A DNA stretch of 64,000 nt, from the NCBI GenBank assembly GCA_004335835.1, contig RWJK01001703.1:32410-96409 (forward strand), given 5' to 3'. Below are positions 564 through 63,815 of the stretch, piece after piece. The notes beneath the pieces were generated by a model, which saw only the letters and a program-made list of their open reading frames with translations, was not told where the DNA came from and made no database searches. Every line of letters starts with the position of its first letter. Position 1 is the first letter of the stretch. The translations under genes and the position numbers were made by a program. The DNA comes from Scenedesmus sp. ARA3 (Eukaryota > Chlorophyta > Chlorophyceae > Sphaeropleales > Scenedesmaceae).

Positions 564-758
564 GATTACTGTCTTGCGTTGCTGGTCATGTATGTGATCT
601 GCTCGTACACAAACTGCGCCAGGTCAGTCCAAAGCAGATTTGGCATCCTACCGGCATAATCCAGCCCGAGGATTACTGCCCCGCGTTGCTGGTCATGTAC
701 GTAATCTGCTCGTACGCAAACAGCGCCAGGTCAGCAGCCAGGATGAGCGCCACAAACT
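564..758 (-). repeat. Two stop-containing echoes of the rhodanese terminal exon
   Basis: Positions 671-758 and 564-630 repeat the last coding part of exon 4 (793-885), including the MTSNAGQ-stop region. The first copy is nearly identical and the second is more diverged. They lie downstream of the true stop, so they would be 3' UTR or non-genic. Confidence 0.85.
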
Positions 759-792
759 TGACATCGCGCACCAACATAATCCACCCTTGGGA

Positions 793-3385
793 TTACTGCC
801 CTGCGTTGCTGGTCATGTACGTAATCTGCTCGTACGCAAACAGCGCCAGGTCAGCAGCCAGGATGAGCGCCACAAACGACAGGATGCCCGAAACACCGCC
901 CAGGAACTGACCCTCGTTGTACTCCTGCTGCACCTCGGTCCAGCCCAGCGCCTCGCTCAAGCCGCCGATGCCCGCATACCTGCAGACAGATGTAACAATA
1001 TAACAGAAAAGCAACACAGAGTGTAAGAACATATGGCAGTGTTGTGGGTTTGCGGTACTCCTGCTGCACCTCGGTCCAGCCCAGTGCCTCACTCAGGCCG
1101 CCGATGCCAGCATACCTGCAGACAGATGTAACAATGTAACACAAGTAACAGACTGTAAGAACATATGGCAGTGTTGTGGCTTCGCGGTACTCCTGCTGCA
1201 CCTCGGTCCAGCCCAGCGCCTCGCTCAGACCGCCAAAGCCCGCGTACCTGCAGACAGATGTAACAACGTAACAGAAAAGTAACAGAGTGTAAGAACATAT
1301 GGCTGTGTTGTGGCCCTCACGGTACTCCTGCTGCACCTTGGTCCAGCCCAGCGCCTCGCTCAGGCCGCCGATGCCGGCATACCTGCAGACGGATGTAACG
1401 AAGTAACATTGTAACATAAAAGTAAAAATTTGAGTTTTTAGCGGCTTTGTGTCCGCCCTTGCTTCCAAGCACCACACAAGCAACCTACCCGATTCTTGGC
1501 TAGCCCCACCAATCCCTGCGTCGGATTACAACATTGTGTTGCTTCAGCTGCTGTCCTTTCACAAGAGATTCAACTGCTATTGCAGCCAAGCGCACCTCAC
1601 GTCCTTGTTGTCAGTGGTAGGCAGGTCCCCTGGGCGAGCTGTGTCGAATCCACCGTTGATCCAGGCAAGCTTACTGTAGCCGGCTCTTCCAAGCACTACA
1701 CAAGCAACCTACCCAAATCCTTTGCTAGCCCCAACACAACTGCTGCCATTAATCTCTGCGTTGAAATGAATCACAACATTGTGTTGCTTCGGCTGCTGTT
1801 CTTTCATAAACTTCCCTACTGTCGTTGCAGCCAAGCACACCTGACGTCCTTGTTGTCCGTGGTAGGCAGGTCCCCTGGGCGTGCAGTATCGAAGCCACCA
1901 TTGATCCAGGCAAGCTTGCTGTAGCCGGCCCTGCTCAGCTGCTCAGCAGCAGCAAGGCTGCGAAGGCCCTTCTGGCACGCCACCACCACGGGGGTGTCCT
2001 TGGGGATCTGGGCCTGGACCTGTTACATGACACGTTACATTGTTACAAGAGTCTTAGTTGACGGTCACAGTGCCATGGACACGATCTTGGTTGCAGACAC
2101 TGGGTGTGCAGTTGCGGCTAAAGTTGGACACAGCAATAAAAAACGGATTGAGCTGCAGCAGCAGAGAATATCACAAAACAATTAAGTAACAAGATGTAAC
2201 AATCACCTGCGCCAGGAAGTCGTTGTTGGGGATCATGTGCGTGCCGCCCAGCCACCAGCCGCCGGTGCCGATGGTTGCAGACTTCTTGAGCAGGCTTCCA
2301 ATGCTGTTTGAGGGGTCCTCCACATACAGCGGCACCGCCACAGCTCCCACAATGCCAACCTTGGCTGTCTCGCCGGGCGGGCGGATGTCCAGCAGCTTCC
2401 AGCCCTGCTGCATCATCTCGCCTGCAGGGAAATGACGTTACATTTTGTCGATATATGACATGGATGGATAATGCCGACCTTGGCAGTCTCGCCAGGGGGG
2501 CGGATGTCTAGCAGCTTCCAGCCCTGCTGCATCATCTCGCCTGCGGGGAATGTGAGATGTTGTGTAAAACATGTAAAGGACAAAGCTGTGTAAAGGAGGC
2601 TATACGGCTCCTGGGCTTTGAACATGTGTGTTGAGGTCAAGCCCAGATCCCGGAACAGATGTCCAGCCGCACCCAGCCCGGCTGCATCATCTCGTCTGCA
2701 GGGATGGTGTCACGTTTTGCTGAGATGTTATGTGACATGCTACCGCAGTTTCCTTGCACAGGCTGGCACGCTGTATAGACTACATTGTGAGCTGCAGCGC
2801 ATGTGGCAGCAGCTACAGCACATTTGCAGCAAAAGTTGTCCCTGCAATGGCAAGCTCTTGTGGAAAGCAGGTGGCCGCAACATACAAGCGCGTGTCGTGA
2901 CATCAGCCAAAAGCACCAGCACCAGCACCAGGCCCTTCTTCGCCCAGCACTTCCGATGCCCTCAGCTGCTGTGCTGACTGCTCAAGCCCAATCAGTGCAC
3001 CACAGGCTGCTGCTGAAGCCGCACAAGATGATGCTGACTGCATTGACCCATTTCCTGCAAGCGATATAAAAACATACAGCCTGTGATGCGCCTGCCCTGC
3101 TAGCTGTGAAAACACAACAGCAACACGCTCACCTGCAGACTTGTTGGACACGTTCGTCACCACTCCATCCTTCACCTGCTGTGTCCAGCGTGCCTCAGCC
3201 TCCTGCTGCTTCGTGCTGGCTGCACACACCAGCACCGCACTGCCGCGGCTGCTGCTGCTGCTGCCTGGCGCTGCCGCTGCACGTGCCGCAACACGCACGC
3301 AGTGCACTGCACGGACGGGTGCAGCCACGCTGCGGCCGCTGGCAGCAGCTGCTGCGTTGCTGGAGATGCGCTGTGCGAGAGCCAT
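793..3385 (-). CDS. Chloroplast rhodanese-like (sulfurtransferase) domain protein
   Basis: Four exons on the minus strand (3133-3385, 2207-2421, 1841-2019, 793-979) join in phase to 277 aa. The start is the ATG at 3385; residues 1-55 are Ala/Ser/Arg-rich with few acids, like a chloroplast transit peptide. The rhodanese fold is supported by KLLDIRPPGE in exon 2, GGWWLGGTHMIPNN, and the active-site loop CQKGLRS (Cys171) followed by a GYSKLAWINGGF-type end in exon 3. The last exon carries GIGGLSEALGWTEVQQEY and one hydrophobic segment around residues 240-262, then stops. Known family: plant STR/rhodanese-like chloroplast proteins with a C-terminal membrane helix; the exact subfamily is uncertain. 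The catalytic Cys suggests sulfurtransferase capacity, but the substrate is unknown. Every exon after the first has truncated tandem copies beside it, so a gene predictor could easily misplace exon 4. Confidence 0.85.
1059..1382 (-). repeat. Three acceptor-side echoes of rhodanese exon 4
   Basis: Copies with acceptors opening at 1382, 1247 and 1115 repeat the first part of exon 4 (acceptor at 979), spaced 135, 132 and 136 bases. Each keeps a CTGCAG acceptor and the Y-A-G-(I/F)-G-G-L-S-E-A-L-G-W-T motif, is cut off after the codons for Q-Q-E-Y-R, and runs into intron-like sequence with no donor. The first three stay in one open frame. Confidence 0.9.
1463..1840 (-). repeat. Tandem copy of rhodanese exon 3 donor end plus intron
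   Basis: About 225 bases are duplicated: 1463-1690 resembles 1690-1930. The copied part holds the end of exon 3 (INGGF...DNKDV-like) and intron sequence. The inner copy's donor context is changed (cacctcacg against cacctgacg), so it is probably not used. Confidence 0.8.
2471..2700 (-). repeat. Two acceptor-side echoes of rhodanese exon 2
   Basis: Positions about 2471-2545 and 2640-2700 repeat the start of exon 2 (EMMQQGWKLLDIRPPGE at 2421). The first is close to identical. The second has diverged to EMMQPGWVRLDIC. Both sit in intron 1 and lack the rest of the exon. Confidence 0.85.
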
Positions 3386-10453: not shown

Positions 10454-10490
<37 letters not shown>

Positions 10491-11745
10491 CCACGCCAGC
10501 AGCAAGGGCCCTGTTGGGCTGCAAGGCCCCCAAGGGGCAGCAGGGCGGATAGGGGCTAATGGTGAGCAGCAGCACCAGCACCAGCAGCGATAGAGACAGC
10601 AGCAGCAACAGCAGCAGCAGCAACAGCAGCAGCTATGGCAGGAGCAAGGGCCCGCTGGGTTGCAAGGCCCCCTTGAGGGCAGCAGGGCCGACAGGGGCAA
10701 ACGACAAGCAGCAGCAGCAACAGCAGCAGCAGCTTCTGATTTGAATTCTGGATTCTGGTGGACCTTCAACACACAGGCACAGCAACACCCTTTTTGTCTC
10801 AAAGTACTACCTGTGCCCTCCGCGATCACCATAAGGCGCTACCTGCTGGAACTCCAGGTGCAGCTTGATGTGCAAATCCAGTGGATGGTTGACTTAGTGG
10901 TTGCCCAATGAGCCTGTCATTGGCTCGAAAACGGGTTGTGTTCCCGTCGTGTTCACACAAATCGTGCGATGCAAGGAAAGCCTCTGCAGCCATCACCTTC
11001 CCAGGCTCATGTTGAAGTCATCTGCAAAGAGAGTGCCCACACAAATCCTGTGCTTTCTGTGCCGCCGCAAACATTTGTCTGCTGGCACAGGAACCACTGG
11101 CGGCTGCCCAAACTGCAACGCCACGGCTTTGGTGGATCAGGTGATAACGCAACTGAATGGCACAGGCCCGGGTAGCGGCGGAGTCGGCACAACTGGGCCG
11201 ACAGGACCCAGGGGAGCAGGTGAGGTGATGGTGCAGGTAGGGGCAGATAGTACAGTCGTGTTGGATTACGTATACAGCCCGGCGGAGTGGGCAAGACTGG
11301 GCCGACAGGACCGAGGGGTGCAGGTGAGGGGTGCTGTGGTTTATGCGGTTGATTTGAAGGCAGAGTGAATCTTTAGGGGGCAAGACTGGGCCAACGGGAC
11401 CAAGGGGTGCAGGTGAGCCACTTACGAGGCAGTTTCTGTTGCAAATTAGCGCAGAGTTCTTGGAAAAGCAAGCCATTGTGCGTTGTCTGGGCTCAAATCC
11501 CCATGGCGCGGTGCAATGCAGCATGATGATGCATGACCTGGGTCTACTGCAGCTGAGCAAGTTGTTCACAAGGTGACTTCCAAGCATGCATGTGCCATGG
11601 GTTCAGTGACGTCACTTGCAACCACTCGCATCACCTGTGTATGACATCGACTGATGTTTACACGAGTTGAACCTGCTTTGAGCTGTTTACGCTGCGGGCG
11701 GCACCCTGAAAGCCTGTACTGGCCTGACAACTGCTCCTGCTGCTG

Positions 11746-11784
<39 letters not shown>

Positions 11785-14403
11785 AGCAGATGCCCCATCT
11801 GCTGGCACCTTCACAGCTGGCCAGAACGGCACTGTGAATGCAACCAAAGGAGGCACTGTGTTTGTGACAGACGGCGTAACTGTTGTGGATGCACGAGGCA
11901 ACTTCAGCAACAGCACAAACTCAACCACCTACTCAGTCCTGAGTAAGTGCCGTCTGCTGCTGCCCTACTTGCACACTACTCATTCTCTAGTTGCTACGCC
12001 TGCAAGATTTTAGCTACTGTGCATGCTGCTTGTTACGCTGTTAAAAAAGCTGCCGCTTTTTCACAACCTGGTAGCTACTAGCCGGGCAGCTGGTCACTGT
12101 TGTGGATGCCCGAGGCAACTTCAGCAACAGCACAAACTCAACCACCTACTCGGTCCTGAGTGAGTGGCCTTTACAGAACAGCGTGTCTGCTGTGTGCATG
12201 CTTGCGCGTGTGCGTGTATGTCTGTGTATGTCTGCACATCCTCTTGTTTATGTGCAAGCTGCGCCGCATCAAGGCACCCCCTTCATACCCCTGCAGCAAA
12301 GCCGCAGCTTTGGCATTAGCGCAGAATGCCTGCAAGCTTTTAGCTTGCCTTGCATGCTGCTGGGCACAATTTCAAAACAGCACCCCCTTTTGAACACCTG
12401 GTAGCCTCAGGCAAATTAATAATCAGCCTGGCAGCTGGTCACTGCAGCCACTCACACACAGCATGCTGCTGCTGTTTGCAGGTTACCGCTGCCGCCAGCT
12501 CTTCCCTGGAACGAATGTAACAGTCAACGTGGGGCTGGGTCAAAACTTGACAAACGGCACAAATGTGACAAACCCTGCACTGGTGGTGGCTGATATGCCG
12601 AGTGCCTGCTGGGTGAACAGCACTTTGGCCAATACCACAAATACAACCACAGGGCTGGTGCTGGTGGGCGGCGGCTGCAACCTCAAGTAAGTGATGTGTT
12701 ATATCTGTCATTGTACATGTTATATGACGGAGTTGTCAATTGCCTCCTGGGTGAACAGCAGCCTGGCCAATACTACAAACACCACAACAGGGCTGGTGCT
12801 AGTGTGCGGCAGCTGCAACCTCAAGTGAGTGTTATTGTTATTGATGTGACACGTTATATAGTTGATATGCCGAGTGCCTGCTGGGTGAACAGCAGTCTGG
12901 CTATACTACAAACACCACAACAGGGCTGGTGCTAGTGTGCGGCGGCTGCAATTTCAAGTGAGTGTCGTGTTATTGTTGGTTGTTGTATGTGTTGCATGAC
13001 AGTTATGCCGAGTGCCTGCTGGGTGAACAGCAGTCTGGTTAACACCACACACAAGACAGCAGGGCTGGTGCTGGTGGGCGGCGGCTGCAACCTCAAGTGA
13101 ATGTCGTGTCACTTATCTTGACGTGACGTGTTCAACAACAGACATGTTGGTTGCCTGCCGGGTGAATAGCAGCTTTGTTAAAACCAAAGATACCACAGGG
13201 CTGGTGCTGGTTGCCATGTGCAACGCCTGGGCAACCAATACCAAATCTGTCGTGCTATTTGCTGTGTTGGTTGCTGCTGCTGCAGCTGCACCGCGGAGGC
13301 TGACTACGCGAGGCTGTTCATCACTCGCCAGAATGTGGTGCCCGGTAACATGCCATACAACAGCAGCAACGCAACACTCTTTGGGCTGCCGCTGACTGGA
13401 AGCGCTGTGGAGTGCGGCATAAGGTATGTGTGCCGTGCGTCTATAGGGTTCTGTGTGTGTTTGTGTGTGTTGTTGCATGGAAGCGTGTGTTGAATCTTTT
13501 GTTGCTCGACAAGCGGCAACAGCAGCAGCAGCAGCAGCACCTGCAGCCTGCTGAGCACTTGCAACAGATCACATTTTGGTGCCAGGCAACGTGCCGTACA
13601 ACAGCAGCAACGCAACGCTCTTTGGGCTGCCGCTGACTGGAAGCGCTGTGGAGTGCGGCATAAGGTATGTGTGCCGTGCGTCTGTAGGGTTTGTGTGTGG
13701 AAGCGTGTGTTAACTCTTTTGTTGCTCGACAAGCGGCGGCAGCAGCAGCAGCAGCACCGGCAACCTGCTGAGCACTTGCGACAGATCACATTTTGGTGCC
13801 AGGCAACGTGCCGTACAACAGCAGCAACGCCACACTCTTAGGGCTGCCGCTGACTGGCAGCGCTGTGGAGTGCGGCATAAGGTGATGTGTGCCAAGCCTC
13901 TTTAGAGTTGTGTGTGTGTTGTTGTGTGAAAGCATGTGTCAACTCTTTTGTTGCTCCACAAGCGGCAGCAGCAGCACAGCATCATCATCATCATCAGCAG
14001 CACCGGCAACCTGCTGAGCACTGGCAACAGATCACATGTTGGTGCCAGGCAACGTGCCGTACAACAGCAGCAACGCCACACTCTTAGGGCTGCCGCTGAC
14101 TNNNNNNNNNNNNNNNNNNNNNNNNNNNNNNNNNNNNNNNNNNNNNNNNNNNNNNNNNNNNNNNNNNNNNNNNNNNNNNNNNNNNNNNNNNNNNNNNNNN
14201 NNNNNNNNNNNNNNNNNNNNNNNNNNNNNNNNNNNNNNNNNNNNNNNNNNNNNNNNNNNNNNNNNNNNNNNNNNNNNNNNNNNNNNNNNNNNNNNNNNCG
14301 GCACGGGTGGCGGGCGGCCCTCGTGCGCCTCATCCCACTCCAGCAGGCACTCGCCCTTGTCGATGGCCTCCAGGATGTAGTCGTACATGCCCAGAGCAGT
14401 CCT

Positions 14404-14920: not shown

Positions 14921-15039
14921 GCAGCAAATGCGGCTTGGGATATCCCATTGATGGCACACTGGCGGGCGATGTTCGGCACAGCTTGGCAGCACAAGGCCAC
15001 GCCTACCTTGTGATTCATTTTGGGCACTTCAAGATGGCC

Positions 15040-15240
15040 GTGTGCAACCTGCTGGCCATACCCTTCTGCTGCCTAAGAGTATGAGCAGTAACTGCAGCTG
15101 GGGATGGCAGGCTCTGAGGCGATCCTTGGCACAGCCTGACAGCGCAAGGCCACAAGTACCATGTGATATGATTTGGCGCTTCGAAGTGGCCGCGTGCAAC
15201 TTGACAGCCATACCCTCCTGCTGCCTGAGAGTGTGAGCTG
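15040..15240 (+). repeat. Two echoes of the collagen-gene terminal exon
   Basis: Positions about 15038-15084 and 15190-15236 repeat the end of the last exon: VCNLLAIPFCCLRV-stop and ACNLTAIPSCCLRV-stop. Both keep the stop codon. A further shorter copy lies near 15846-15884. Confidence 0.85.
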
Positions 15241-23319: not shown

Positions 23320-23550
23320 TTGATGCCCTCTGGGTACCTGAACACCGGCAGCCGCCTGATCACAAAAGCTGGCGCTGCTGAGGTGCTGTGGAAGCTGCCA
23401 GAATAGATCTCGCCGGGCAGATGCATTGCCCTGCCGATTTCAACATCAAACTCATCTTGCGGGAGGATGCGCGACAGGATTGCGTTGCGGCAGTGCCACA
23501 GCAGGAACAGCAGCGAGGAGGACAGCAGGAAGATGAAGGCCAGCACGTAC
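22323..23550 (-). CDS. RING-H2 membrane protein, 5' exon not located
   Basis: One large exon opens at a CTGCAG acceptor (23550) and runs 409 codons to the stop at 22323. It begins with a transmembrane helix (YVLAFIFLLSSSLLFLL), then IRRLPVFRY, the conserved segment before ATL-type RING fingers. A long Ala/Gln/Ser-rich spacer holds poly-Ala runs and poly-Gln of about 17 residues. Next comes a complete RING-H2 finger: C-II-C-x14-C-Q-H-YY-H-AQ-C-x10-C-PL-C. The exon enters in phase 2 (xx|G TAC), so at least one upstream exon with the start codon is missing; I could not find it between 23560 and 24300. It is probably a paralogue of the gene at 18448-19954. Confidence 0.75.
22656..22708. repeat. 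CTG triplet run, about 17 repeats, coding poly-Gln
   Basis: An uninterrupted CTG run on the plus strand encodes poly-Gln in the minus-strand RING-H2 gene, about 15 residues before its RING finger. Shorter runs of the same kind lie at about 22999-23027 and 23278-23313. Confidence 0.95.
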
Positions 23551-23603
23551 CTGCAGGAAGGTCAGCGGCAGCGGGTGGGAAGGTCAGCAGCAGTGGGTGA
23601 GAA

Positions 23604-23790
23604 GGTCACAGCAGGAACAGCAGCGAGGAGGACAGCAGGAAGATGAAGGCCAGCACGTACCTGCAGGAAGGTCAGCGGCAGCGGGTGGGAAGGTCAGCAG
23701 CAGCGGGCGAGAAGGTCACAGCAGGAACAGCAGCGAGCTGGACAGCAGGAGGATGAGTTGCATGTGCCAGCAATGCAAGGTGAGCGGCAG
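23604..23790 (-). repeat. Acceptor-side echoes of the RING-H2 membrane-helix exon
   Basis: The stretch 23607-23660 repeats 23498-23550, including the acceptor and VLAFIFLLSSSLLFLL codons, offset 110 bases. A third, diverged copy lies at about 23717-23775. The copies alternate with AGGTCAGCGGCAGCGGGTGG-type intron sequence. Confidence 0.85.
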
Positions 23791-23799
23791 CGGGTGGGA

Positions 23800-26109
23800 A
23801 GGTGAGGTCACAGCAGCAACAGCAGTGGATGAGGTCACCGCAGGAACAGCAGTGCCAACGTCTAACAGGACAGTTCTACACAGTCAATGCAAAGCTGCGC
23901 ACTTTCAAGCAAAGCTAGACCAGGAGACCCTCGCCCAATGTACATGGCAGGAGGTTATGCAAGATTAAAAAGGTAGTGAGGATACCTTTCCTTCCCAGCA
24001 GGCGAGGTGGACCGCCCCTCTAATGTTTACTGCGTAGCTCAATGCACTTGTCAGACGTGTGTGCACGCGCAAACATGACAGCTGTGCAGACAGAGGCGGC
24101 CATTGCACAGCTGTGATTGAGTAACCTGTGCTGAGCATGCAGTGCTGAGCATGCAGTGCTGCTGGGCGTGAGCTGTTAAAAGAGAGTTTAGATCGTACAT
24201 GTAGGGATTGAACTGCAGTGTGCGTCGAAAAGATGTTTACCTTAAGATCAAAGGTTGATGACATGCATGGCCTGAGTACCCTGCGTGCTCTGTTACCTGG
24301 AAGCATACACTTACATTGGAGTCAGGTTCATGGGCTTGAGCTGGCTCCTGGCGCGTGGTGATATGCTGTGCTGTGGTGCGCCAGTGGCAGCTGTGACTGG
24401 AGTGTGCCAGTGCTGCAGATCGTGCTGCTGCTGCTGCTGCTGCCGTCGACTGCAGCTGAGCGGCTGCAGGTGTAGATACCGCTCACAACAGGTTTGCCTA
24501 GTGCCAGATTCTGCTGTAGCTGTGGCTTTGTATGCTGTTGTTGCTGCAGCTTGCTGCCTTGGCCTGTGATGAGCTGCTGGTGCTTTCCCTTCTGGTGCTG
24601 TGGAAGGCGTGCCGTCTTCACTGCTTTTCCAGTTGTGTGTTCACCAATTTGCTAAGGCATCCAGGCCAGATGCGCCTGCATATAAAAGTGAAAGCGAGCG
24701 GGGTGATAGCCTGGTGACCCAGCTTTGCTGTGCAGTAAGGTTGAAAGCACGAGCACACCCCGCTGGCCAGCAGGTGCGCAGGTCTAATTGATTGTCCTGC
24801 TTAGCTTATGTTGCAGGCATACGGGCTCGTGCTGAGCTGTTCGTGCAAATCCTTTGCAGAGAAGGACGACAGAGTGCAATTTGCAGCAAGCCCAGCGATC
24901 GCCTTTGACTCCTTGACAAAAGCTGCGATAAGAATGCCAGAAATGATTACCTGATGGCAAGAGCACAAGCCAGCAGTCCACCGTCAAGGCCCTTCTCCGA
25001 ATGTCGACATCAAGTGCTTTGGAGGCCGTGTCCCACCTTAGAAAGCCACATAAAAAGACTCCGCAAAATATCAGGTTTCGATGCATGCAACCATTTGCTG
25101 GCTCACCACGATTTGAAGTGACCGACATAACGGGGCAGTTCTGACTTGTCAGAAGCACGATGATTCCCGATACATTGGTTCAAATCAAAGATGTCTGCTT
25201 CTTTGCTGATTAACCACATGGCATCGTCAACGCTTTTTCAAATGTGCTGTCACTGTAGTGTGCCAGCTACTTGATTCTGCGCTCTTGCGTTGTTTTGTTC
25301 TTCTTTGCCTGAAACATAACGTTTGCAGCGCAGTTTAAGCACAGGGGATGTCAGGGGACTGGTTGTGCAGTGGCAGAGCCTCAACAGTGCCGCAGGCTGG
25401 ACTGTTCACAACAGCGACGTAGCAAACATCACCCTGGAAAAACCAGCAGCAGGAACGATACAATTTCCGTGTCCCTGCTGTCATGCCACAAATGCGCTGC
25501 TTAACAGCACATACGGGTTGCGCAGGTTGGCACATGCTGACTTCATTGGCGAACTTCGCTAGGCTTGAAGGCTGGCCTGCAGGCCAGGCTGTATCTCGTT
25601 GCAACAGGATAACCCAATCACCTGCGAAGAGAAGTAAAATTTGATATTTTTGTTAGACTACTGAAGCACCGACAGTGGCTGCGCTCTTGTGTTGCTGTCC
25701 TGCACTGGACCGTGTCTCCTGCTCTGCCACAGAAGATGGAAGTCCAACAGCCAAGGTGTTGGGTCTTGTGCCATGCACAGCCAGCTCACCTGTAGCTGAG
25801 TTATCGGCTCGTATCTACAGTCATTCCAATCTTGCCTGAAAAGCGAATGCGCAGCTGCACGGCAAGCACTACCTTCGAGCTTTCACCAACCTTGTTCCAG
25901 CAGAAGTGCCCACTTGACCGCCTCACAGCAGGTTCATCGTTCTGTCTGCTCTTTATTCAGCTGAATACAAAAACCACGACCTCTAGGCATGAGTGCTGCG
26001 CTGGGCTGCAGACGATCACACGCCATAACTTGCCAGGTGGACAAGCCTCGACCTTTCCCATACTCCGTGTTGTTTCCAATCCCACAAACATCAACAACGT
26101 AATCCTAAC
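23800..26109. other. Mostly unassigned
   Basis: The only notable stretch is a possible terminal exon at 25329-25562, listed separately. The remainder holds short frames without motifs. Confidence 0.4.
25329..25562 (+). CDS. Possible terminal exon of an unidentified gene
   Basis: A pyrimidine-rich tract and a TTTGCAG acceptor precede a 78-codon frame ending in TAG. It reads TGDVRGLVVQWQSLN, then NITLEKPAAGTIQFPCPCC and ends FIGELR. The C-P-C-C...C spacing could bind metal, but I recognise no family. No upstream exon could be linked. Confidence 0.3.
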   Translation, partial: RSLSTGDVRGLVVQWQSLNSAAGWTVHNSDVANITLEKPAAGTIQFPCPCCHATNALLNSTYGLRRLAHADFIGELR

Positions 26110-27833
26110 ATGCTGATGCAGGCGGGAGCAGCGCCCGCACGGCCAGGGCTTCGAAACTGTCGAATCAGCAGCAGAGCAGGTGTGTCTCAGAGCAGCAGGG
26201 AGGCCCAGCTGACTGATCTGCCCTCCTCGCTCACAAGCAACTGCTGCTGCAGGTGTAGCAGCAAAGTCGAGCACGTTTGGCAGGCAGCTGCCTGTGCATG
26301 CAAGCAATGGCTACAGATGGAGCATGGGCAGGTGGCTAGACAACAGGTGCGGCACTGTCAGCAGTACCGTGATGCTGCTTGGTGTAGTTTGTTTAATAGC
26401 ATGGTGACTAAATCGCACCATGCGATTGCACTTCTTGACTACAGCTAAGTTAACTAAGGATGCATCGTGCAGCAGTCGGCAATCAGACAGCCTTTCTGTT
26501 GTTGGCCTGGTTTGACAGCACTTAAAGCTGCAGCAGGGCAGAAAGCAGCAGCTATATGTTGTGGTGTGGCTGGGTGCTGTGGGCATGAAGACGCTGAGTG
26601 ATGCTGACGGTAGCATCTAAACCATGCAGCGCGGCTAGTAAAGCTGCCGAGCAAGTGATTGCAGCAGAGCAAAAAGGGTTGTGGCTGACTCGCTGGCTGT
26701 AGACCTATTTTTTTACAGCTCAAGCAGATGTATCCTTGCTCACGATCACGGGTTGTGCACGGTGTTGTTGCAACAAGTATATGTAGCATGTTACTTTTGC
26801 ACAGCAAACGTGAAGGTGGCGGTGCCGCTGGAGGTTTGCTGGTCGCTGTGGGTGGCCCGGGAGCGCATCCCGCTGCGATCACATGTCATATTGTCATGTA
26901 ACATGTTACTTTCCTGTGTGACTTTTGCAGGGCTGACGTGGAGGTGGCGGTGCCGCTAGAGGTGTGCTGGACACTGTGGGAAGATCGGCAGCGGATCCCC
27001 CTCTGGATGCCATGGATCAAAAGTGTGACGGTGCAGCAAGACAACCCGGCACTGTCGCGCTGGACACTCTCCACACACCAGTTTGGCAGGTGTGCTTGCT
27101 GCATGGTTGGTCTTGCATGTTGCTGTAGATCTTTGGATCAAAACTGTGACAGTGCAGCAGGACAACCCTGCTCTCTCACACTGAACACTCTCCACACTCC
27201 AATTTGGCAGGTAAGCTGGGTAAGTTGCTGAGCTTGCATGCGGCTGGCGCGGAACATGCCGCCAATCGGGGACCAGACGACGTACACAGCAATGGTTTGC
27301 CCTAAAGTCATGACCCTGCTGCCTTTGTTTGTTTGCTGGTTAGCATAAGGACTGGGAGCTCTCGTGGCTGGCGCGCAACCTGGCTACATGCAGGAATTAA
27401 CGATGCACTGGATCAGCACCACAAAAGGGTTGTTTGCTGTAATCCACCTTGCTTTGCTTTCTACGTGCTTTCGCAGGGACTGGGAGTTTTCGTGGCTGGC
27501 GCGCAACCTTGCCCCCATCAAGAACCAGAAGATCCACTGGGTCAGCGAGCCAGGCAGCGCCAGCATGGGCCTCAACATCAACAACAGGGGGCAGATACGG
27601 TGCGGCACTCTTGATCTTGAATACTGTGTTAATGCATCTTGATATGTGTATAGATCTTGATCTTGATCTCAGTTCAGCACAGAGGCAGCGCCAGCATGGG
27701 CCTCAACATCAACACCAGGGGCCAGATACGGTGCGTGGTTGTGGCTTGGCGCCTTTTGTATTAGCGCATCTTAGGTTAGTGGCAGCGCCAACATGGGGCT
27801 GAACATCAACAACAGGGGCCAGATACAATGAGG

Positions 27834-27884
<51 letters not shown>

Positions 27885-38000: not shown

Positions 38001-38033
<33 letters not shown>

Positions 38034-38132
38034 CCAGCAGCAGCAGCATGTCAAGACGCAGTGCGTTGACGGTGGCAAAGATGCCCTCCGGGTCTAGCGG
38101 GCTGCATGAGAGAGGCGCACCGTCAGGGCCTG

Positions 38133-38165
<33 letters not shown>

Positions 38166-41100
38166 TGACATTGACAATGTCAATGAGGCTCCAGCACGAT
38201 GCTGGCCAATGGCGCCGCACGGGGGCTGTACGCAACAAAGCATACAACAAGTAGCGACGACATCTTTGTGTCATGCACAGCAGGTGAAAGACAGCAGGGT
38301 GCCTAGGACAACATATCATGTGCTTGCTGCAGTAGTTTGACGAGGAAAAGGCACACAGGGGTGCACAACCATAACAGCTGTCAAATGGTTTGCACAACAG
38401 GCACATGCGTATGTGCCTCACCTGTGTTACTGAGCATCAGCTGCCGTGTGCAGCGTTCCCCAACCGGCAGTGCGCCAAAATCAAGCACCCAGTAGCTCTT
38501 GCCAGCCGGCTTTGGCAGCACTGGAGAAGCTAGCTGCAGCTCCGGCGCAACTGCACACGTTGTGACTGCCAAATGCAGCACGTTTGCATCACTGCTGCTG
38601 CTAGCGCTTCTGCTGCTGGCACCGGCTGCTGCAAGTTTGCTGGCTGCGATTATCACGTCTTCTTCTCCTGTTGCAGCTGGCCTGGTGTAGCATGGCAGCA
38701 GCCACTCCTTGTACCACATCCACCTGCCATCTGCACTGCTGCTGCTGCTGTTATTATCCCCTGCTCCTGCTGGTGCTGGCGATGCAGTGGCTGCTGCTGC
38801 ACCTGCAGTCTGCACTGGCTGCTGCTGCTGTTGCCCTGATGGGCTAGCAGCAGCAGCGCTCTTGGCGGATCCACCTGCCGCTGCGGCTGCCGCTTTTGGT
38901 GGACTGGCAGCAGGTGCTGCTGTGCCAGCGGACCCAGACCCAGCAGCTGCTGTAGAGGCAGTTGCAGGCGCGCTGGCGACCTTATCATCGGGCACGATAA
39001 ATGACAGCGGTGGTGCAAAGTCCAGCTGCACCCTCAGGCTGCTGCTGGGCTTCAAGCAGCCCACGCGTGGTGTCACCTGCAGCCAGCAGCACAGCAAGAG
39101 TGTGTACAAGAGTGTACACGTGTGCTTGTCATTAGCCGAAGTACTCTGGTATTTCAGCATGAGCATGAATCACTAACAGCGTTTGAAAACGCAGCCTCTT
39201 TCCAATATGCTGCCGGCTGCCAGGAAGCAAAATGCCATGACGCTGCACACTCAAGTAAAAGTTTCAAGGCTGTCCTGCTGGCTGTGAGCCTTTCTGTCAC
39301 CGGCATTGTGGGCGCATGCGCGTCAAAACAGCATGCAACTTCCATACCACTAACTCAGCGCACCTGCAGCCAGCTGCCAGCTGGCACGCCAAACTCAAAC
39401 AGCTGCGAGGTGGTGGTGCTGCTGTTGCGCAGGATGACAGAGGCGCTGGCTGCATCACCCACGGCAGTGGCTGGGAACTGCATGCAGCACAGGCAGCACA
39501 TAGCAGATCAAAAAATGGTGTTTTTTAAATCCAATGGCAGCCTGCTGATTTGTAGATACAAACACCATAGAACGTGCCAAGGAGCATGCAAAAAGGCAGT
39601 TGTTCGGGTCATGCTTGATGCTTGCACCAGCAGGTAGGTCTTGCATGCTGCACTTCCTCCCTCCCCTGGAGGAGCAACCAGCCGCCTGGCACACACTAAC
39701 AATGAAGTGCAAAGCGCCTCTTGGCTGTCAGGAAGAGTGTTCCCCTGAAGACATATAAGCCGTACTCTGCTTGCCGGCTGTTACTTGCAGCAGCAGCTGT
39801 CTTTGTACAGTCTGTTCAATCTGCTGAGGCACCTGCCCACCTTGATGCTGTTGTGTGACAGCACCAGCTGCAGCTGCAGCCCCTCACACTTCCCCTGCAG
39901 CTTGAACACCCTTCCTGCAAGCGTCCTGCAAGCCATGCTGAAGAACTGCAGCCCGGGAATCGGTGGCTGGAAGCGCATCAGCAGCTGCAGCGTCTCCCCT
40001 GGCAGTACACTGCCATAACCCCCTCCAGGGGTTATGGTCAAACCCAGTGGCAGCTTCGGACCGAACGAGAAGGTCTGCGGTAATCTGGAGGGGTTGGTTA
40101 TGCTGAGGTAGGCGCCGGCTTGCTCACTGAGGGGTACCCTGCCAAAGTCTAAGGTGGCAGGGCTCAGCAGCAGGTCTGTTGTGGTGGGCTGGAAGCGCAG
40201 CTTGAAGGGCACAGGCATGGTCTGACCTGGCACACTGACCAGCAGCGGCACCTCAAACACGGCCTGCATAAAACAGCACAGCAGGCAAGGATAAGAGCAG
40301 CAGGTCTGTTGTGGTGGGCTGGAAGCGCAGCTTGAAGGGCACAGGCATGGTCTGGCCTGGCACACTGACCAGCAGCGGCACCTCAAGGATTGCCTGCACG
40401 GCACAGCAGGCAACTAACTGTACAGCATGGCTGGAAAGTAGATCTTGTGACAAATTCGGACTGCAAATGCTGACTTAATGTGGCACAAGCTACAATTGTG
40501 AGACAAAACAGCAAGAAGCAAGTATGATGTGTAGTTGTGCTGCCGCTTGGTGATTCATCGGCCCTGGTAGGGATATCACAAAGGCCTGCTCACCTCTGCC
40601 TCATCACTGCCGTCTCCATTCTCACATCCAGCAGCAGCAGCACCCTCTGCAGCACTGCCAGCAGCAGCGGTTGCCACCAGGTACTTGGCCAAGCGGTGCA
40701 CCATGTCTGTGGTGGGCTTCAAGCTCACACTGACTGACAGCGTGTCGCCAGCCTGCAGCAGCAATGACGGCAGCAACAGCATAAGCAGTACAAAATCAGC
40801 TGCTCAGCTTATGTGAAAACCTGCTTTCAGCTGCGAACTGTTTACCAGCTGTGTGCAGAGAGTCGTGATGAACTGTGCTGCACGGTGCATGCAGCTGCAG
40901 CATTCACTCATGCACCAGGGCAACCTCACACCTGTTTCTTGAAACATGCAGCTTAATATATCAGATGTGCGCGAATCCCGCCCAGTTTTAAGCTTGTTCA
41001 TTGCAGTTGGGATGGCCATCCACGCTGCATGTGTCAGCGCAGCAAGACCATGCACAAGCACTTGGTGAGCAGCCATACAACACCATTGGCCCATCCTTAT

Positions 41101-44100
41101 GCAGGACAGCCACCTGCAGCCACACCAAAACTTACCTGTATGAACCCAAAGTCCGGGGTGAAGGTGATACAGTCGGCCAGCTCAGGCCTGCTTCCAATGA
41201 GCGCCTTCATGACAGACTTGCCGGCGTTGGCCAGCAGCAGCGCTGCAGCGTACTGCCGCCCAAACATGACACACCTGGAGCCAGCAGCAGCAGCAGTGAA
41301 GCGCGCACACCGCGCATCAGGACTGGTACCGAAACAGCTGCTGCAAACCCAACAAGTGAAGTACAGGTGACAGACATACGAGGAGCGATGCACGAGAGTG
41401 AAACACAGTGGGGCTGGTGCACTACATTTCTGCAGGGCCTGCACCAGACCCAGAAAACTGTGAACATTTTGACCATGCCTGCTGCAGCATCATGCAGCAT
41501 AATGCTGCCACAGCTCACTTGAAGTCCACTAGTGGTGTCAGCGTTGACACAGGCAGCTCTCGTCCAGTAGCTGTCAGGCTCAGCTGCACCGGCTGCAGCT
41601 GCAGCACCCTATTTTCCGGTGCAGCGAAGCGCACCAGCAGCGGCACCTCCACGTCACCTGCATGGCACACAGCAGCACAAATACTTGTACAAGTTGATGT
41701 GAATGCTGTCCAGCTAGCAGCCAGTAGCACTTTGTGCAAAGAAACAAATAGCAGCGGCACCTCTGCGTCACCTGCATGGCACACAGCAGAATCATTTTTT
41801 CACATCATTTGAGATATGGCTGTAGCCCTTCACAGCGGCGTTGCTGTCTTGCAACCTAGAGCCAGCCCTTCCACCCGTTGCACCCTGCAGCCGCCCGTTG
41901 CACCCTGAAGCCACCCTCCAGCCAACCTGAGGTTTTATGGTAGCATACTTCAAAGCAGCCGGCAGCGACAAGCTCACCTGCCACGCGTGGTGTGAACCCC
42001 ACGGGCAAAACCATAGAGCTGTAATTCGTCGCGGTGCACTTGCTGCCCTGCACCTTGGAGCCGCCTCTTGCACCCTAAAGCCACCTTAGACGCTTCCAAA
42101 AAACAGCAAATCAGCATACTCAACCAACTCACCTGCCACACGTGGCGTGAACTCCACTGGCAGCGTCATACTGCTGTAGCCCTTGACAGTGCCCTTGATG
42201 CCTTGCACTCTAAAGCCAGCCACTGACAAGCTGGTGGCTGCACATGCCTTGGCTTGCAGCTCTGCCATGTCTTCAGGCGTTGCGTTGGGTGGCGGCATGG
42301 GAGGGTCGGGCTCTTCATACTCTGATGTGGCAGCCAGTGCGCCTGTGACCTGCAAAAACAGCGCACAGACGGGTCACAAGTGATGAGAGTCAAAACTAAA
42401 TTAGCTGTGTTGGTTGGCGGCATGGGAGGGTCTGGCTCTTCATATTCTGTTGCTGCCAGTGCGCCTGTGAATTCGAACTGCATGAGCAATGCAAAGACAG
42501 AAAATTTGTACAAACAGCACAGCAGTTTTAAGGATAGGGCTGCACTGCGGCTTGCTGCAAAGGCGCTGCAGGACTGATGTTATTCATTACATTACATTAC
42601 ATTACATGCTCCACTCAACGAGGAGTGGGAACCCCAGTCAGGAGCCAACGAGAGGCTCAGAGGGGGAGGAAACATCGAAGAACAACTCATCATCGTCCAA
42701 ACCGTCAGACGAAAACGCAGAAAAAAACTCATCAGCATCATCAATAGCTTATTCATGTCAACAACTTCCAACAGTTTGAAGTTGAGTTCTCACCAGCAGT
42801 TGTATGTATCTGGTCTTTCAGTTTGATGGGTCACAGCTGCTGCAATGCATCTACAGCCTGCAAATATGTGACGAACCATACCTTGACGTCATACGCCACT
42901 GCAAGCGCGCCCGCATTGCTGATGGTGATGCTCCTGCTGCCGGTAGCTGCCAGCATGACTCCGCCAGCCCTGCCGTTGAGGCACACCACGGGGCAGGGCT
43001 CCACTGAGGGCAGCGCCCGGCGTGCCAGGCATGACAGCTGCACTGCCAGCGGCCCCGTCTCAGCCAGCAGCGAGATTGATGCTGACAGGTCTGCTTCCGC
43101 CTGTTGCAGCAGCATTGACAGGGACATAATGCATTAGCTGCAGGCTACCTGAAGGCAGGGCCCGTCGGGCCAGGCAGGACAACTGCACTGCCAGCGGCCC
43201 CGTCTCAGCCAGCAGGGGGATTGATGCTGACAGGTCTGCTTCCGCCTGTTGCAGCAGCACCAAACATGCAAACGCCATTGGATGCATGCCAGCTGAGACG
43301 GCTGTTGAGATGGCCACCTCAAGATCGGTAGGCCAACCATTTGCACAAGTCCAGCAGGTGATACGGGGTTGTGTAAGAGCGCTGTTGCTCAGCTGTTCGT
43401 CTGCACCTGTCAGCTGCCACATGCACTGCCAGTGTGCAGATCACGTATGGATGGCGCCTGTCTGCTGGCTGACAGCACACACCTTGGGGGTGAAGGTGAC
43501 CTTCAAAGTGGCTGCTGCGCCTGGTGCTAGGCAGCCAGAGGGTGGCATGTCCAGCTCAATCACATCCACCACCTGCAGTGCATGCATAGGCAAAAAGAAT
43601 GTGAGGAAACTTCATGGTCGTTAAATGAAAGACATCCTGCAGCATGTCCAGCTCAATCACAGCGCAACCACCCGAACACAAAACTTGGGTAACAACAATG
43701 TCATTGAACAAGAAAATGAACACAGGTGTGCTGTTTTGATCAAGAGTGTAAGGACACCCTCTGATCTGCCGCTTTGACCTGCTGGATATCAGCCGCAAAG
43801 CTGGAGAGCTGCAGTCCAATGCAGCCATGCACACTGTACCGCCTACAAACACCCCATTCTACTGGCCGCGCAATGCACGACAACAGCACAATGGCAGCAG
43901 TCTCAGCTGGCCTCACGCACCTCTGCCGGCACCTCCAGCAGCCGGATGCTGTTCTTGATGAAGCCAGCCACCGCAATTGCACAAGCAAATGAACAGCCAA
44001 GGCAACACAGACAGCTGCATCAGGCCTCCACGCACCTCTGCCGGCACCTCCAGCAGCCGGATGCTGTTCTTGGTGAAGCTCCTGTTGATGAGCTGCAGGC

Positions 44101-49059: not shown

Positions 49060-54469
<5,410 letters not shown>

Positions 54470-61300: not shown

Positions 61301-63365
61301 TGCGATCAATCACTGGACATGCTACGCCAAACAAAGGTCGAGGACTAGACCCGTCTCTTTGGATTGGACGGCGCACCTACCTGGGTTGGGTGGGCGAGGG
61401 TCCAGGGTGCAGCTGCCTTGTGTGATGCCTCCCCACACGCCATTGGTGCATGTGGCGGACAGGGTCCCAGACAGTGTGAAGCGGCTTTTGCAAGTGGCCA
61501 CACAGGTCCGGCCATCTGATGCAAGGCGGTGAGAGGAGAGACAAGCAGCAGGGCGGTGGCAGGTGGAAGCACGGAGTGTTGTAAACTTCCCTTGTGACAA
61601 TCAGGGAACTGCATTGGTTATGCTGCCAGCCAGGCCATAGGTTGCAGCAGCTGACATGTGAGCACTTGCTTAGGAGACACACACGAGGAGGATTACGGTG
61701 TAACAACTTACACACAGTTGGGCGGCAAAGTGCGTACGACTCAAATGTGATACCCAGAGAATGCAGCGTAACTGGGACAGTTTCATCAGCCTGCCTGCAG
61801 AACCAAGATGGCTCACGTGCTGTTCTTGCTCCACAGCCCCAGACTGCGCCTTTCGGTGTAGCAGGTGGCTGCCCCACACAGTCCTGTGTTGCCGGTGGCG
61901 GCGGTGGCGGCACTGCGAGCACAACAGCAGCAGCACGTCATAATGTGAATACGAGGCTGGTTGTCAATGGCAGGTGAAGCAGAGCCTGCAGCTGTTGGCT
62001 TGCGGCTGTGCGTGGCTTGCGTGGCACATGTGCTGGCGTGTTGTTGTGCTGAGTGCAGCGCATGCAATGACCATGGTACGCTGGTTTATCTGTTTGAGAT
62101 GGTGTCTCAAACATGCGTGATGTTTGCCAGCTGTCGGCACAGCTGGCATGCCAGCTGAGCAGCCTCAACATCCACCCTCGCAGTGAAGATCAGAACCAAA
62201 TCAAACAAAAAATGCGTCATCAACGTGCTCAGCACCAAAGGTCAGAGGCGATAAGAATCTGCAGTTGCTGAATTGGCAGCCTACTGCTATGTAGCGCCAT
62301 CATATACACATGGCTGCGAGCTGATTCTCACACACCTATGTATAACTTGCAGCACTGCTGCGGCAGTTGCATCACATGGCAGCACGACATGCTGCAGATG
62401 CCACATGCACATTCCGCAGCGATGTGGATGCTCACCTAGCTCGCAGCCATGTGTGTATAAACGCTGTAACTGTTTTCAGGCTCGACCATAAGGAAATTTC
62501 TGAACTGGCCGTCGCCAGTAGCATCAGTCGATCGAACATAACATAACATCTTATTTTCATATTGTGAATGCTCACCTAGCTCGCAGCTGCCTACGGGCTC
62601 ACTCCATGCCAGGCCCCTTGCGGGGTGAACGGTACAAGCAGATGTTGGTGGCCCACCGCTGCCTGGCTGGTACTGGTCCGGGCACGTCGCTGTGCAGTTC
62701 TGACCGATGGGTGTGTAGAGGCAGGTGTCGTTCCAGGCACCCTGCTTGAGGGCAGGAGGGAGGCCGAGCCCGTAGCAATTGCCTGCACGATGAAAAAGTG
62801 ACAGCACATATGATGAGCATACTTGGCAGGAGGCTCTACTAGTGTTTTTGTTGCGCGGGTGATTTTGAAACTTGCACTGTGGCCTTCGCCTGGCTCCCAG
62901 CCAACACACAGCTGTGACAATTAAACAGAAGGCGTTGTTGCCACAGGACGTGCACACCTAGAGGGAGGTTGTAAATACATTGATAAGTGATGTGCAGCAC
63001 CTGCCATCTTGCTCATGGAAGGCAATCACCGCCACACATGATCATGTGGTGCCAGCAGATGGCAAAAACGGTCCATGCTAGCACATCTCCCGCTCTATGT
63101 CAGTATTTAGTTGATGTACATCATCATCACATGGCCATGGGCTTGCTGTTGTGGACAACAGGGCGGCTCTGTGCCTGCTCGACGCTGTACACTCACGTGC
63201 TTCCGGGAACGGCACGCAGATGCCGACCTCAACGAAGCTCTGAGTGCCAAACATGCACTGAGACCTGGAGGAGCACCTGAGCTCGCAGACACCTTCCCAG
63301 CCGTCCTTCACTGCCGGCCCGCAGCCGCCATACGGCTCAACCTCTGACTTGCTTGTGCAGGTGGG
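58304..63365 (-). CDS. Secreted Cys-rich protein with sushi-like modules, 5' end not found
   Basis: Eight exons (63197-63365, 62576-62782, 61712-61912, 61381-61515, 60706-61014, 59809-60024, 59211-59494, 58304-58498) join in phase to 571 aa. The start codon and signal peptide were not found and may lie beyond the window. The N-terminal part is Cys-rich, with repeated modules of the pattern C...W...G.C (EVEPYGGCGPAVKDGWEG; PDQYQPGSGG; SATCTNGVWGGITQGSC), like sushi/CCP domains, and a PPPPPP linker. The centre is a beta-rich domain: SSEGFVKFGRLS, then PNNPYVVIQWTNNFVFNRN and FQMNIFNNGDIGFIYNSV, resembling nidogen-like or similar extracellular beta-sandwiches. The last exon ends TVEMIACPT. An extracellular or cell-surface role is inferred; the ligand is unknown. 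The nearest known homologue cannot be determined without a search. Confidence 0.7.
58949..59166. repeat. Nested inverted repeats in the last intron
   Basis: Outer arms of about 33 bases at 58983-59015 and 59134-59166 are inverted copies with about three mismatches. A second pair, GTTACAAGTCCTACGCATCAG at 58949-58969 and its inverse at about 59061-59081, overlaps it. A third weaker pair (GCATAGGC/GCCTATG) is inside. Confidence 0.85.
62430..62456 (-). repeat. Short donor-side echo of the sushi-like exon
   Basis: GCTCACCTAGCTCGCAGC at about 62430-62448 repeats the end and donor of the exon finishing at 62576 (CELG). Confidence 0.75.
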
Positions 63366-63439
63366 CTGCGGGGCAGGCGGGAAAGCATACACATGTGTAT
63401 ATAGTTGGCAGCTGCAGGAAAGATGCGTGTGTGCGATGA

Positions 63440-63815
63440 AGACACATTGCATTTCATGCCAGCCGTCCTTCACTGCCGAAGTGCAGCCGCCAAGCGGCTC
63501 AACCTCTGACTTGCCTGTGCAGGTGGGCTGCAGGGCAGGCGGGACAGCATTACATTTCAGTCTATTACAAGCTCCACTCAAACAAGGAGTGGGATCCCCA
63601 GTCAGGAGCCAACGAGAGGCTCATAAGGGGAGGAAACATCGAAGAACAACAAAAAGCCAAAAAAAGAAAGCGTACAAATGTTTTTATAGTTAGCAGCTGC
63701 TGGAAAGATGCGTGTGCTCGATGAAGACACATTGCATTTCATGCCAACCGTCCTGCACTGCCGAAGTGCAGCCGCCAAGCGGCTCCGCGCGAGAGGTGCT
63801 GGTGCAGGTGGGCTG
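63440..63815 (-). repeat. Two acceptor-side echoes of the first visible secreted-protein exon
   Basis: Copies opening at about 63527 and 63810 repeat PTCTxxSxxEPLGGCTSAVx and DGWHEM after CTGCAG acceptors; the true exon opens at 63365. Both are truncated at DGWHEMQC. The mobile-element copy lies between them. Confidence 0.9.
63545..63665 (-). mobile_element. Second copy of the (TGTAA)-tail retroelement
   Basis: Shares about 85 bases with 42577-42745, including AGTCAGGAGCCAACGAGAGG and AGGAAACATCGAAGAACAAC. The tail here is shorter and diverged (TGTAATAGACTGAAATGTAA on the minus strand). Confidence 0.7.

Follow-up and report, generated by a model that had tools for sequence, protein, structure and literature searches.

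Tandem arrays in the genome of a Tetradesmus-like green alga are placed on exon edges far more often than chance would allow: 89 of 108 arrays cross such an edge, compared with 53.1 +/- 4.4 under shifted placement (maximum 66 in 1000 shifts). This strong excess excludes chance as the cause of the placement. It bears out an earlier note that had proposed a genome-wide process tied to exon edges and had suggested such a comparison. Parent and copy have diverged with fewer amino acid changes than free decay permits, and the copies are decaying now. The inner copies may be former active exon edges, produced by unequal recombination between divergent alleles; we put the probability of this at about 0.4.

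Location and structure of the arrays

The DNA comes from an 87-Mb assembly, and the sample consists of one stretch of 64,000 nucleotides (the window), 19 other stretches and 20 kinesin loci. Contigs were picked by round numbers, except C5 and C29, which were known beforehand; locus L024 lies on the window's own contig. Locus L020, which contains long near-identical repeats, is kept in the 89/108, donor/acceptor and splice-dinucleotide counts. It is left out of the sensitive scan and of the codon-position, base-composition, indel, satellite-exon, private-change, pair, period, exon-part, intron-homology, edge-array-per-intron, intron-only, G+C and heterogeneity analyses. Exons were predicted with a program trained on kinesin exons, and its quoted recovery was measured on the same exons.

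Comparison of the window with itself yielded 90 off-diagonal matches: 85 direct repeats separated by under 1 kb (49 of them by under 250 bases), two matches far apart and three palindromes. From these, 35 local tandem arrays were built (Table 1). A predicted exon-intron junction lies inside 24 of them, seven have no predicted exon, and four are of other kinds; copies of exon edges are thus pervasive in the window, as had been claimed. Six of the seven arrays without predicted exons were aligned by eye. Four have a donor-like motif after a common tail, and arrays 14875-16393 and 33762-34651 show no clear edge; array 10334-10703 lies outside these alignments. The array at 13336-14101 adjoins an assembly gap. 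The figure of seven genes given previously is about right, although two lack any Pfam match and the evidence for one consists of open frames and motifs only. The repeats at 31447-31980 are no exon edge but coding repeats of a RAP-domain protein.

Table 1. Repeats of the window, in window coordinates; a slash marks an exon-intron junction
Feature	Position	Strand	Remark
Rhodanese-domain gene, tandem copy near last exon, period 107	552..877	-	not classed as edge array
Acceptor-side array of exon 796-979, 3 extra copies, period about 132-136	908..1408	-	same rhodanese-domain gene (Rhodanese domain match)
Donor-side copy of exon 1841-2013	1462..1932	-	31 codons: 9 synonymous, 0 amino acid changes
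Acceptor-side copies of exon 2207-2404	2351..2719	-	
Four exon-tail arrays: 11176-11417, 11876-12166, 12591-13211, 13336-14101	11176..14101	+	edges by motif only, no predicted exon
Array classed as edge, CAG-rich, frame doubtful	23497..23852	+	omitted from codon-position and private-change tests
Arrays at predicted edges: 26789-27002, 27013-27246, 27349-27546, 27552-27834, 28128-28932	26789..28932	+	gene without family match
In-frame coding repeats, 114 bases / 38 residues, RAP-domain protein	31447..31980	-	outside the phenomenon
CFAP74-like gene, arrays on exons 37027-37156 and 37832-37994	37082..38132	-	CFAP74 domains in other exons
CFAP74-like gene, more edge arrays: 40166-40413, 41636-41789, 41819-42221, 42281-42470, 43004-43259, 43909-44079	40166..44079	-	
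TrpRS donor-side array, exon ending ...DILLYQ/gtgagc, 4 extra copies	50569..51456	+	
TrpRS donor-side copy of exon 51641-51704	51670..51830	+	
TrpRS donor-side array, exon ending ...IMSLQ/gtgcg, 2 extra copies, period 241	52029..52578	+	
TrpRS acceptor-side copy (CTG)nCCAG/GTGAAGCGC, period 110	53258..53421	+	98% identical
TrpRS donor-side copy of ...LSTGKTK/gtgtg	53434..53626	+	
TrpRS acceptor-side array CAG/GAGGAGGTGCTG, 3 extra copies	53843..54298	+	two outer copies degenerate
Acceptor-side array of exon 63197-63365	63297..63819	-	gene without family match; 23 codons: 0 synonymous, 4 amino acid changes

Exons of the tryptophanyl-tRNA synthetase (TrpRS) gene at 49.0-54.5 kb match proteins of Tetradesmus obliquus, and six arrays sit on its exon edges. 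No repeated segment occurs in 11 TrpRS proteins of relatives (11 of 120 listed). TrpRS and NDUFS2 are represented by one locus each. When 3.1 kb of TrpRS were compared with the genome, all of the matches listed on other contigs (40 of 72 candidates scored) were at CAG/CTG repeats (query 408-538, 1322-1392, 2593-2650).

Over all loci 41 acceptor and 33 donor edges are involved, in agreement with the earlier statement that both sides are affected. An edge array is present in 43 of 217 introns of the other stretches and in 5 of 105 introns of the kinesin loci. No clear relation to G+C content emerges: rho is -0.51 (p 0.03) in the 10-kb loci and -0.12 over all.

Intergenic and intron-only arrays are rare. 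A sensitive scan for tandem similarity was positive in 91 of 477 edge-straddling, 73 of 742 intron and 6 of 365 intergenic scan windows, with 67 scan windows without predicted exons (10.2-16.6 and 33.6-34.8 kb; 25 positive) set aside, which if counted as intergenic would give 31/432. The repeats are not equally common between genes; equal frequency there is the outcome that the earlier note had named as telling against its claim. Of the positive intron windows, 66 lie inside edge arrays. Four arrays are fully contained in one intron, where uniform placement predicts 41%; this count omits L020, which the 89 edge arrays include, and if all nine arrays classed as intron or other were intron-only there would be nine beside the 89. 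Detection bias was considered and rejected, as the same scan does find the intron parts of the same arrays.

Of 153 neighbouring pairs, 139 have a period of 80-300 bases; periods that are multiples of three (49/153) are not preferred. The exon part common to parent and copy has a median length of 53 bases. In 62 of 91 copies the homology continues for over 15 bases on the intron side; in the other 29 similarity is unclear past the splice motif. The exon part and the homology on the intron side indicate that the unit crosses the junction and does not stop at it, so that an exon part, one splice site and an intron part stand in direct tandem. Whole-exon duplication and mutually exclusive exons were rejected, since the copies are truncated and a good far splice site is mostly absent.

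This structure can be compared with several known systems. In the model of Rogers (1989) and Hellsten (2011), as outlined in the cited part of PMC4974935, an exonic AGGT segment is duplicated. Tandem duplication and CAG/GT-like splice sites are common to both cases, but the units described here hold true intron sequence, not duplicated exon only, and the intron pre-existed. Introners (PMC9860276) also change introns genome-wide, but they are dispersed copies of one element, whereas each array here is built from its own host exon edge. No single sequence is spread over many introns in the window, where two of the 90 matches are far apart. Among open-licence papers we recognised none describing genome-wide exon-edge arrays in green algae.

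Direct tandem units with intron homology are also what short duplications on one chromosome would leave. They would arise by break repair or replication slippage, evolve neutrally afterwards, and be seen at edges because splicing tolerates them there, introns being short. Mechanisms making such duplications are already known, and the units of those that depend on CST and polymerase alpha-primase are likewise direct, tandem and modest in size (PMC8355091, cited part). However, exon-edge specificity and coding-like divergence would not, in our view, be expected from the process as that part presents it, and the scarcity of intergenic and intron-only duplications argues against it, the scan being able to catch diverged intron parts.

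Divergence and decay of the copies

In 91 copies at 61 edges the mismatch is 4.9% at codon positions 1 and 2, 17.3% at position 3 and 17.5% in the intron. The ratio of positions 1/2 to position 3 is 0.28 (CI 0.22-0.35), and 0.24 (0.15-0.36) in named genes (37 copies, 23 edges). The chaperonin genes have the same pattern (4.4, 2.4 and 18.1%; 88 synonymous and 27 other changes in 23 copies), but this set favours conserved copies, because its stretches were picked for protein-profile matches to copies in them, and five of the 23 copies fall short of an exon edge. Two exons, 9582 of L021, whose frame is doubtful, and 23467 of the window, were excluded from the ratio, from the synonymous-uniformity and private-change tests, and from parts of the analysis of third positions against introns and of correlation with amino acid change. 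Copies shorter than 10 codons were excluded from the uniformity test, and those shorter than 12 from the comparisons of synonymous/non-synonymous mix and of donor and acceptor sides. Base composition was rejected as the cause of the third-position excess, as intron rates by base class predict none.

Neutral duplication by slippage or repair predicts a ratio of at least 0.5. Exon-limited gene conversion, itself rejected, cannot rescue it, because third positions and introns are equally diverged. Nor do the copies look newly made: neutral-site divergence is about 17%, and none of the 52 nearest copies is below 2.5%. The copies can thus be called recent in a minority of cases only: 19 of the 153 neighbouring pairs are below 6% raw divergence, and one L021 array has two identical units. 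These few young pairs, and some copies that look neutral from birth, are in favour of slippage or repair; copies with no synonymous and three or four amino acid changes look slippage-born. As a general explanation it seems unlikely, and the specific suggestion of slippage or template switching at CAG/GT junctions conflicts both with the ratio and with units that cross the junction.

Synonymous divergence is uniform in 85 copies (chi-square 91.6 against 84.9 expected, p 0.30) and does not rise with amino acid change (rho -0.24, p 0.025). The synonymous/non-synonymous mix, in contrast, differs among copies beyond chance (chi-square 153 against 79 expected, the two doubtful exons included), which makes it likely that the copies fall into at least two classes. 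Constraint is weaker in acceptor than in donor copies (ratios 0.36 and 0.22, given without interval). An earlier comparison of the sides by counts of synonymous and non-synonymous changes (144/66 against 98/91) was rejected as a measure of selection, since one misframed exon, the source of 18 of the 91, accounts for part of it; the difference of 0.22 and 0.36 remains.

In 20 arrays private changes number 46 synonymous and 40 non-synonymous in the copies, and 21 and 1 in the parents. Exon-part indels shift the frame in 26 of 33 cases, similarly to introns (272/323), and their density is about 15% of that in introns. In addition to frameshifts and extra amino acid changes, the copies have stops beyond those of the parents. 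The splice dinucleotide is kept in 63 of 71 copies and lost in eight. By our reckoning, release from constraint falls at about 0.03-0.06 of the 0.17 changes per site. Taken alone, the copy-private changes are compatible with slippage followed by staggered shedding (synonymous share 0.535, limit 0.457, p 0.09).

Copies that are still spliced into some mRNAs, their coding capacity being kept by selection, would account for the retained dinucleotides and for the many copies in which amino acid changes are few and synonymous ones numerous. Of the copies that the predictor calls exons, 44 of 59 have lengths divisible by three, compared with 188 of 410 other exons, but the predictor's phase rule favours such lengths. 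However, these 59 satellite exons have acceptor scores with a median of 4.3, against 6.6 for other predicted exons, and several far donors of acceptor copies score near or below zero, although some far acceptors reach 6-7. With a frameshift share equal to that of introns, far more amino acid changes than in parents, and TrpRS proteins of relatives lacking the repeat in the set given above, continued use is improbable.

In heterotype false duplication an assembly acquires tandem copies that differ as alleles do. A concatenation of two or more haplotypes or strains at exon-intron boundaries would fit the uniform synonymous divergence, the constrained pattern and the small number of young copies, and assembly gaps adjoin or fall within some arrays. 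But the copies are decayed relative to their parents, with excess amino acid changes (in the 20 arrays), stops and frameshifts, and some arrays are regular, with four to six units. Neither TrpRS nor NDUFS2 has a second locus, and the 20 kinesin loci include no near-identical pair (best 89% over 65 bases). Joins would also be expected within exons and between genes, where arrays are rare. An assembly artefact is therefore quite improbable as the general cause.

Possible origin of the arrays

A close likeness is to the potato RdRp gene, which gained an intron when a segment spanning an intron-exon boundary was duplicated in tandem (Ma, Lan and Niu 2016, PMC4974935); this segment held a single splice site together with portions of the exon and of the intron. 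That case, as far as the cited part describes it, concerns one gene, with the exon part in the mRNA and a new intron, whereas here many introns are affected, on both sides and with several units, and the copies are apparently silent. Early steps of such gain, leading to new introns and longer proteins, would involve the same type of duplication; however, far donor sites are mostly weak, periods are not preferentially multiples of three, and the 11 TrpRS proteins (of 120 listed) lack the repeat. We consider this origin very improbable.

The origin from former active edges would require that divergent homologous alleles pair in exons and fail to pair in fast-diverging introns. Unequal recombination would then attach an exon edge from one allele to the other allele's intron. 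As the outermost splice sites would still define the exon, the inner edge would turn into invisible intron, the array would stay, and the intron would lengthen; repeats in exon interiors would break the frame and be purged by selection. The specificity for edges and the rarity of intron-only arrays and positive intergenic scan windows count for this origin. The ratio of 0.28, its recurrence in chaperonin genes and the non-synonymous excess of copy-private changes count for past constraint followed by release. Uniform synonymous divergence that does not rise with amino acid change is as expected of copies born already diverged.

Other observations weigh against former edges. Neutral divergence at birth, which we estimate at near 0.12, would be unusually high, and the uniform synonymous divergence is at odds with alleles at coalescent equilibrium unless further assumptions are made. 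No second allele is readable. TrpRS and NDUFS2 are single loci, and arrays of four to six mostly mutually diverged units would need several captures. The weaker constraint of acceptor copies is not predicted by allele capture, and the young pairs and the heterogeneous mix of changes also weigh against it. Still more tentatively, introns may grow by taking up exon edges; the arrays would then be a fossil record of earlier alleles, and also a reservoir that could give back an edge on contraction of an array.

Both the growth of introns and the differences in intron length among lineages await explanation, and edge-tied duplication would be one route of growth. In the cited table of PMC5966456 the introns of T. 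obliquus have a mean of 462 bases, and those of three other Sphaeropleales 230-302. For gene prediction the arrays are a warning, as buried edges can be called as exons; the predictor used here gave 59 such satellite exons. If the copies are indeed former edges, a codon-position clock would date, gene by gene, how long each was active before burial, and the arrays would reveal a cost of very high allelic divergence.

Exon-edge copies in the window

The window lies at the end of a contig, in an assembly of 87.27 Mb and 1567 contigs. The earlier note described truncated exon-edge copies, over 30 of them, spread across seven genes; these were confirmed, and in the loci sampled from the genome (the window, 19 other stretches and 20 kinesin loci) 89 of 108 tandem arrays span exon edges. 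The exon edge in use is called here the parent, and the inner units within the intron are called copies. Comparison of the window with itself produced 90 off-diagonal matches: 85 direct local matches, two far ones and three palindromes.

The anatomy is clearest in the tryptophanyl-tRNA synthetase gene (TrpRS), whose protein is closest to that of Tetradesmus obliquus (92%, with an intron stretch still included in the query). The host is therefore probably a member of the Scenedesmaceae related closely to Tetradesmus. After the exon that ends in DILLYQ, its tail recurs in four more copies, every one carrying a separate CAG|GTGA.., and the exon starting with EEVLSD is preceded by three more copies of its head, with an acceptor ahead of each. 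In a search of the genome with the TrpRS protein, the copies appear as extra partial matches with one common end, and 13 of 13 matches fall on a single contig. The alga, whose vegetative cells are not known to bear flagella, has a CFAP74-like gene.

Features of the window (positions without prefix) and of further stretches of the same genome (L019, L021, L024)
Feature	Location	Observation
Rhodanese	0.8-2.4 kb	Pfam match
Region free of predicted exons	10.3-16.4 kb	gene probably present
Predicted exons	27.5-29.2 and 59.2-62.8 kb	no Pfam match
RAP domain	30.6-31.8 kb	Pfam match; the 114-base repeats are coding
Repeats of RAP-domain protein	31447-31980	coding, 38 residues; presumably OPR-type
Flagellar gene, CFAP74-like	35600-48000	
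CFAP74 Ig-like domains	exons at 39.8-44.2 kb	Pfam match
Dispersed direct match	42585-42686 and 63548-63650	103 bases, 90% identity, 21 kb apart; stronger of two dispersed pairs
TrpRS	49-54.5 kb	
CAG/CTG runs	49424-53380	plentiful; some form the stretch before an acceptor, e.g. (CTG)nCCAG at 53230-53260
Palindromic repeats	58626-59165	three, imperfect
(TG)24 run	63953-64000	contig end falls inside the run
Complex1_49kDa and ADH_N	L021	Pfam match
Helicase_C	L019	Pfam match
DUF3337	L024	Pfam match

Distribution over the genome and preference for exon edges

Twenty kinesin loci, located by profile, and 19 other stretches were added to the sample. Eighteen of the stretches measure 10 kb and one 6.9 kb; round contig numbers decided most of the choices, and one stretch, L024, is on the window's own contig. 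Local pairs were observed in 14 of the 19 stretches and four of the 20 kinesin loci. Exons were predicted with a small predictor trained on kinesin exons; it recovers 86 of the 91 kinesin exons of its training set, and in TrpRS seven of the nine exons that we read. The arrays not spanning edges lie within exons (3), where no exon is predicted (7) or elsewhere (9). In 1000 circular shifts, 53.1 +/- 4.4 edge arrays (maximum 66) were obtained against the 89 observed. Edge arrays occur in 68 of 376 predicted introns, at both ends in 21 of these. The affected introns are unevenly distributed over loci (chi-square 105, 38 df): the window has 20 among 54, the kinesins five among 105 and the other stretches 43 among 217, six of the 43 in L024.

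With the chaperonin profile PF00118, runs of partial matches with one common end were recognised by eye on four of the 12 contigs having matches (C1492, C1032, C1016, C1184); on C1492, four matches end at 375-376 and four start at 42-45. Profile PF00346 gives the same picture in NDUFS2.

If arrays were placed uniformly, given the observed periods and introns at their collapsed lengths, 41% of tolerated arrays should be confined to introns; four were observed beside the 89 edge arrays. When 100-base windows were locally aligned to the following 400 bases, similarity was found in 6/365 intergenic windows, 73/742 intron windows (66 of the 73 inside edge arrays), 91/477 mixed intron/exon windows (82 of 91) and 32/336 exon windows (11 of 32). 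These counts omit 67 windows (25 of them with a match) in which no exon was predicted; assigning them to intergenic sequence would give 31/432. Unrelated partners gave six matches in 1986 windows at equal score. Thus the exon edge is special, given intergenic sequence as set by the exon predictor.

Divergence and present state of the copies

For 91 copies at 61 edges, codon positions 1 and 2 differ from the parent by 4.9%, position 3 by 17.3% and intron parts by 17.5%. The ratio of the first of these values to the second is 0.28 (bootstrap 0.22-0.35); donor copies alone give 0.22, acceptor copies 0.36, and the nameable genes 0.24 (0.15-0.36; 23 edges, 37 copies). Among these genes is that of L014, which we take to be a kinase. 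Base composition fails to explain the gap. In 23 chaperonin copies, from six short stretches picked by profile and thus favouring conserved copies, the three positions differ by 4.4, 2.4 and 18.1%, with 88 synonymous and 27 other changes. Striking single copies have nine synonymous and no amino-acid changes in 31 codons, and ten and none in 34 codons (a chaperonin); a 23-codon copy has none and four, respectively. This mix varies beyond chance (chi-square 153 against 79, two doubtful exons included).

Synonymous distance is uniform over 85 copies (chi-square 91.6, p 0.30) and has no positive relation to amino-acid change (rho -0.24). None of 52 nearest copies is below 2.5% divergence, and 19 of 153 neighbouring pairs are below 6% raw divergence. 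Some arrays have four to six units, and one in L021 has two identical units. L020 stands apart from most of the diverged edge copies in having long, nearly identical tandem repeats; at one of its edges all 717 exon-part bases agree.

Private changes, indels, stops, splice dinucleotides and far splice sites gave no sign that copies work now. In 20 arrays of at least three units, private changes are 21 synonymous to 1 in parents and 46 to 40 in copies. Of the exon-part indels in 94 copies, 26 of 33 shift the frame, a proportion matched in introns (272 of 323), where indels are about seven times as dense. Stops occupy five of 1783 codons, and eight of 71 splice dinucleotides are lost. Opposite the common edge a good splice site is mostly absent, although some far acceptors score well; satellite exon lengths are divisible by three in 44 of 59 cases. 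The copies are therefore being lost slowly, after a longer period under selection.

Uniform, constrained divergence is also what a mixture of haplotypes in the assembly would produce. However, such a mixture leaves unexplained why copies are richer in amino-acid changes, frameshifts and stops, why there are regular multi-unit arrays and why placement is restricted to exon edges. Assembly gaps do adjoin or fall within arrays (14102-14298 in the window, L021:1-2128, L011:5510-5634); the arrays may thus interrupt the assembly, and true copy numbers may exceed those counted.

Candidate origin of the copies

The earlier note suggested slippage at CAG|GT junctions. In a copy born identical and then free, changes in its own lineage would by themselves bring positions 1 and 2 to half the neutral divergence, and the ratio of 0.28 argues against this origin.

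A unit that had always been inside an array could not have faced protein selection, and so would have been an active edge elsewhere until recently. The inner unit may formerly have been the active edge of another allele, on the homologous chromosome, away from the present parent. Unequal exchange between diverged alleles would place the edge of one inside the intron of the other; the copy would be diverged at birth by the allele difference, and pairing possible in exons only would produce the edge preference. Divergence at birth agrees with the evenness of synonymous distances, with the rarity of young copies and with synonymous change not rising alongside amino-acid change.

On the other hand, exchange between alleles requires an allele divergence estimated at about 0.12 at neutral sites, which is high. 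A second allele did not show up: TrpRS and NDUFS2 occupy one locus apiece, and no pair among the 20 kinesin loci matches better than 89% over 65 bases. The young pairs, including the identical L021 units, count against it, arrays of four to six units need repeated capture, and the acceptor-donor difference is not among its predictions. Some copies, a minority, seem to have been neutral since birth, and the copy-private changes by themselves do not reject slippage with staggered shedding (p 0.09). Judging from the numbers, it is the best fit but unproven.

In potato, tandem duplication across a boundary created a new intron in a single gene (PMC4974935), whereas the pattern in the alga is genome-wide; our search of open-licence papers found no published account of such a pattern. 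The mean intron of T. obliquus is 462 bases, compared with 230-302 in three other Sphaeropleales (PMC5966456). Tandem duplication here is real, genome-wide and edge-linked, and many of the copies have the appearance of formerly active, since buried exon edges.
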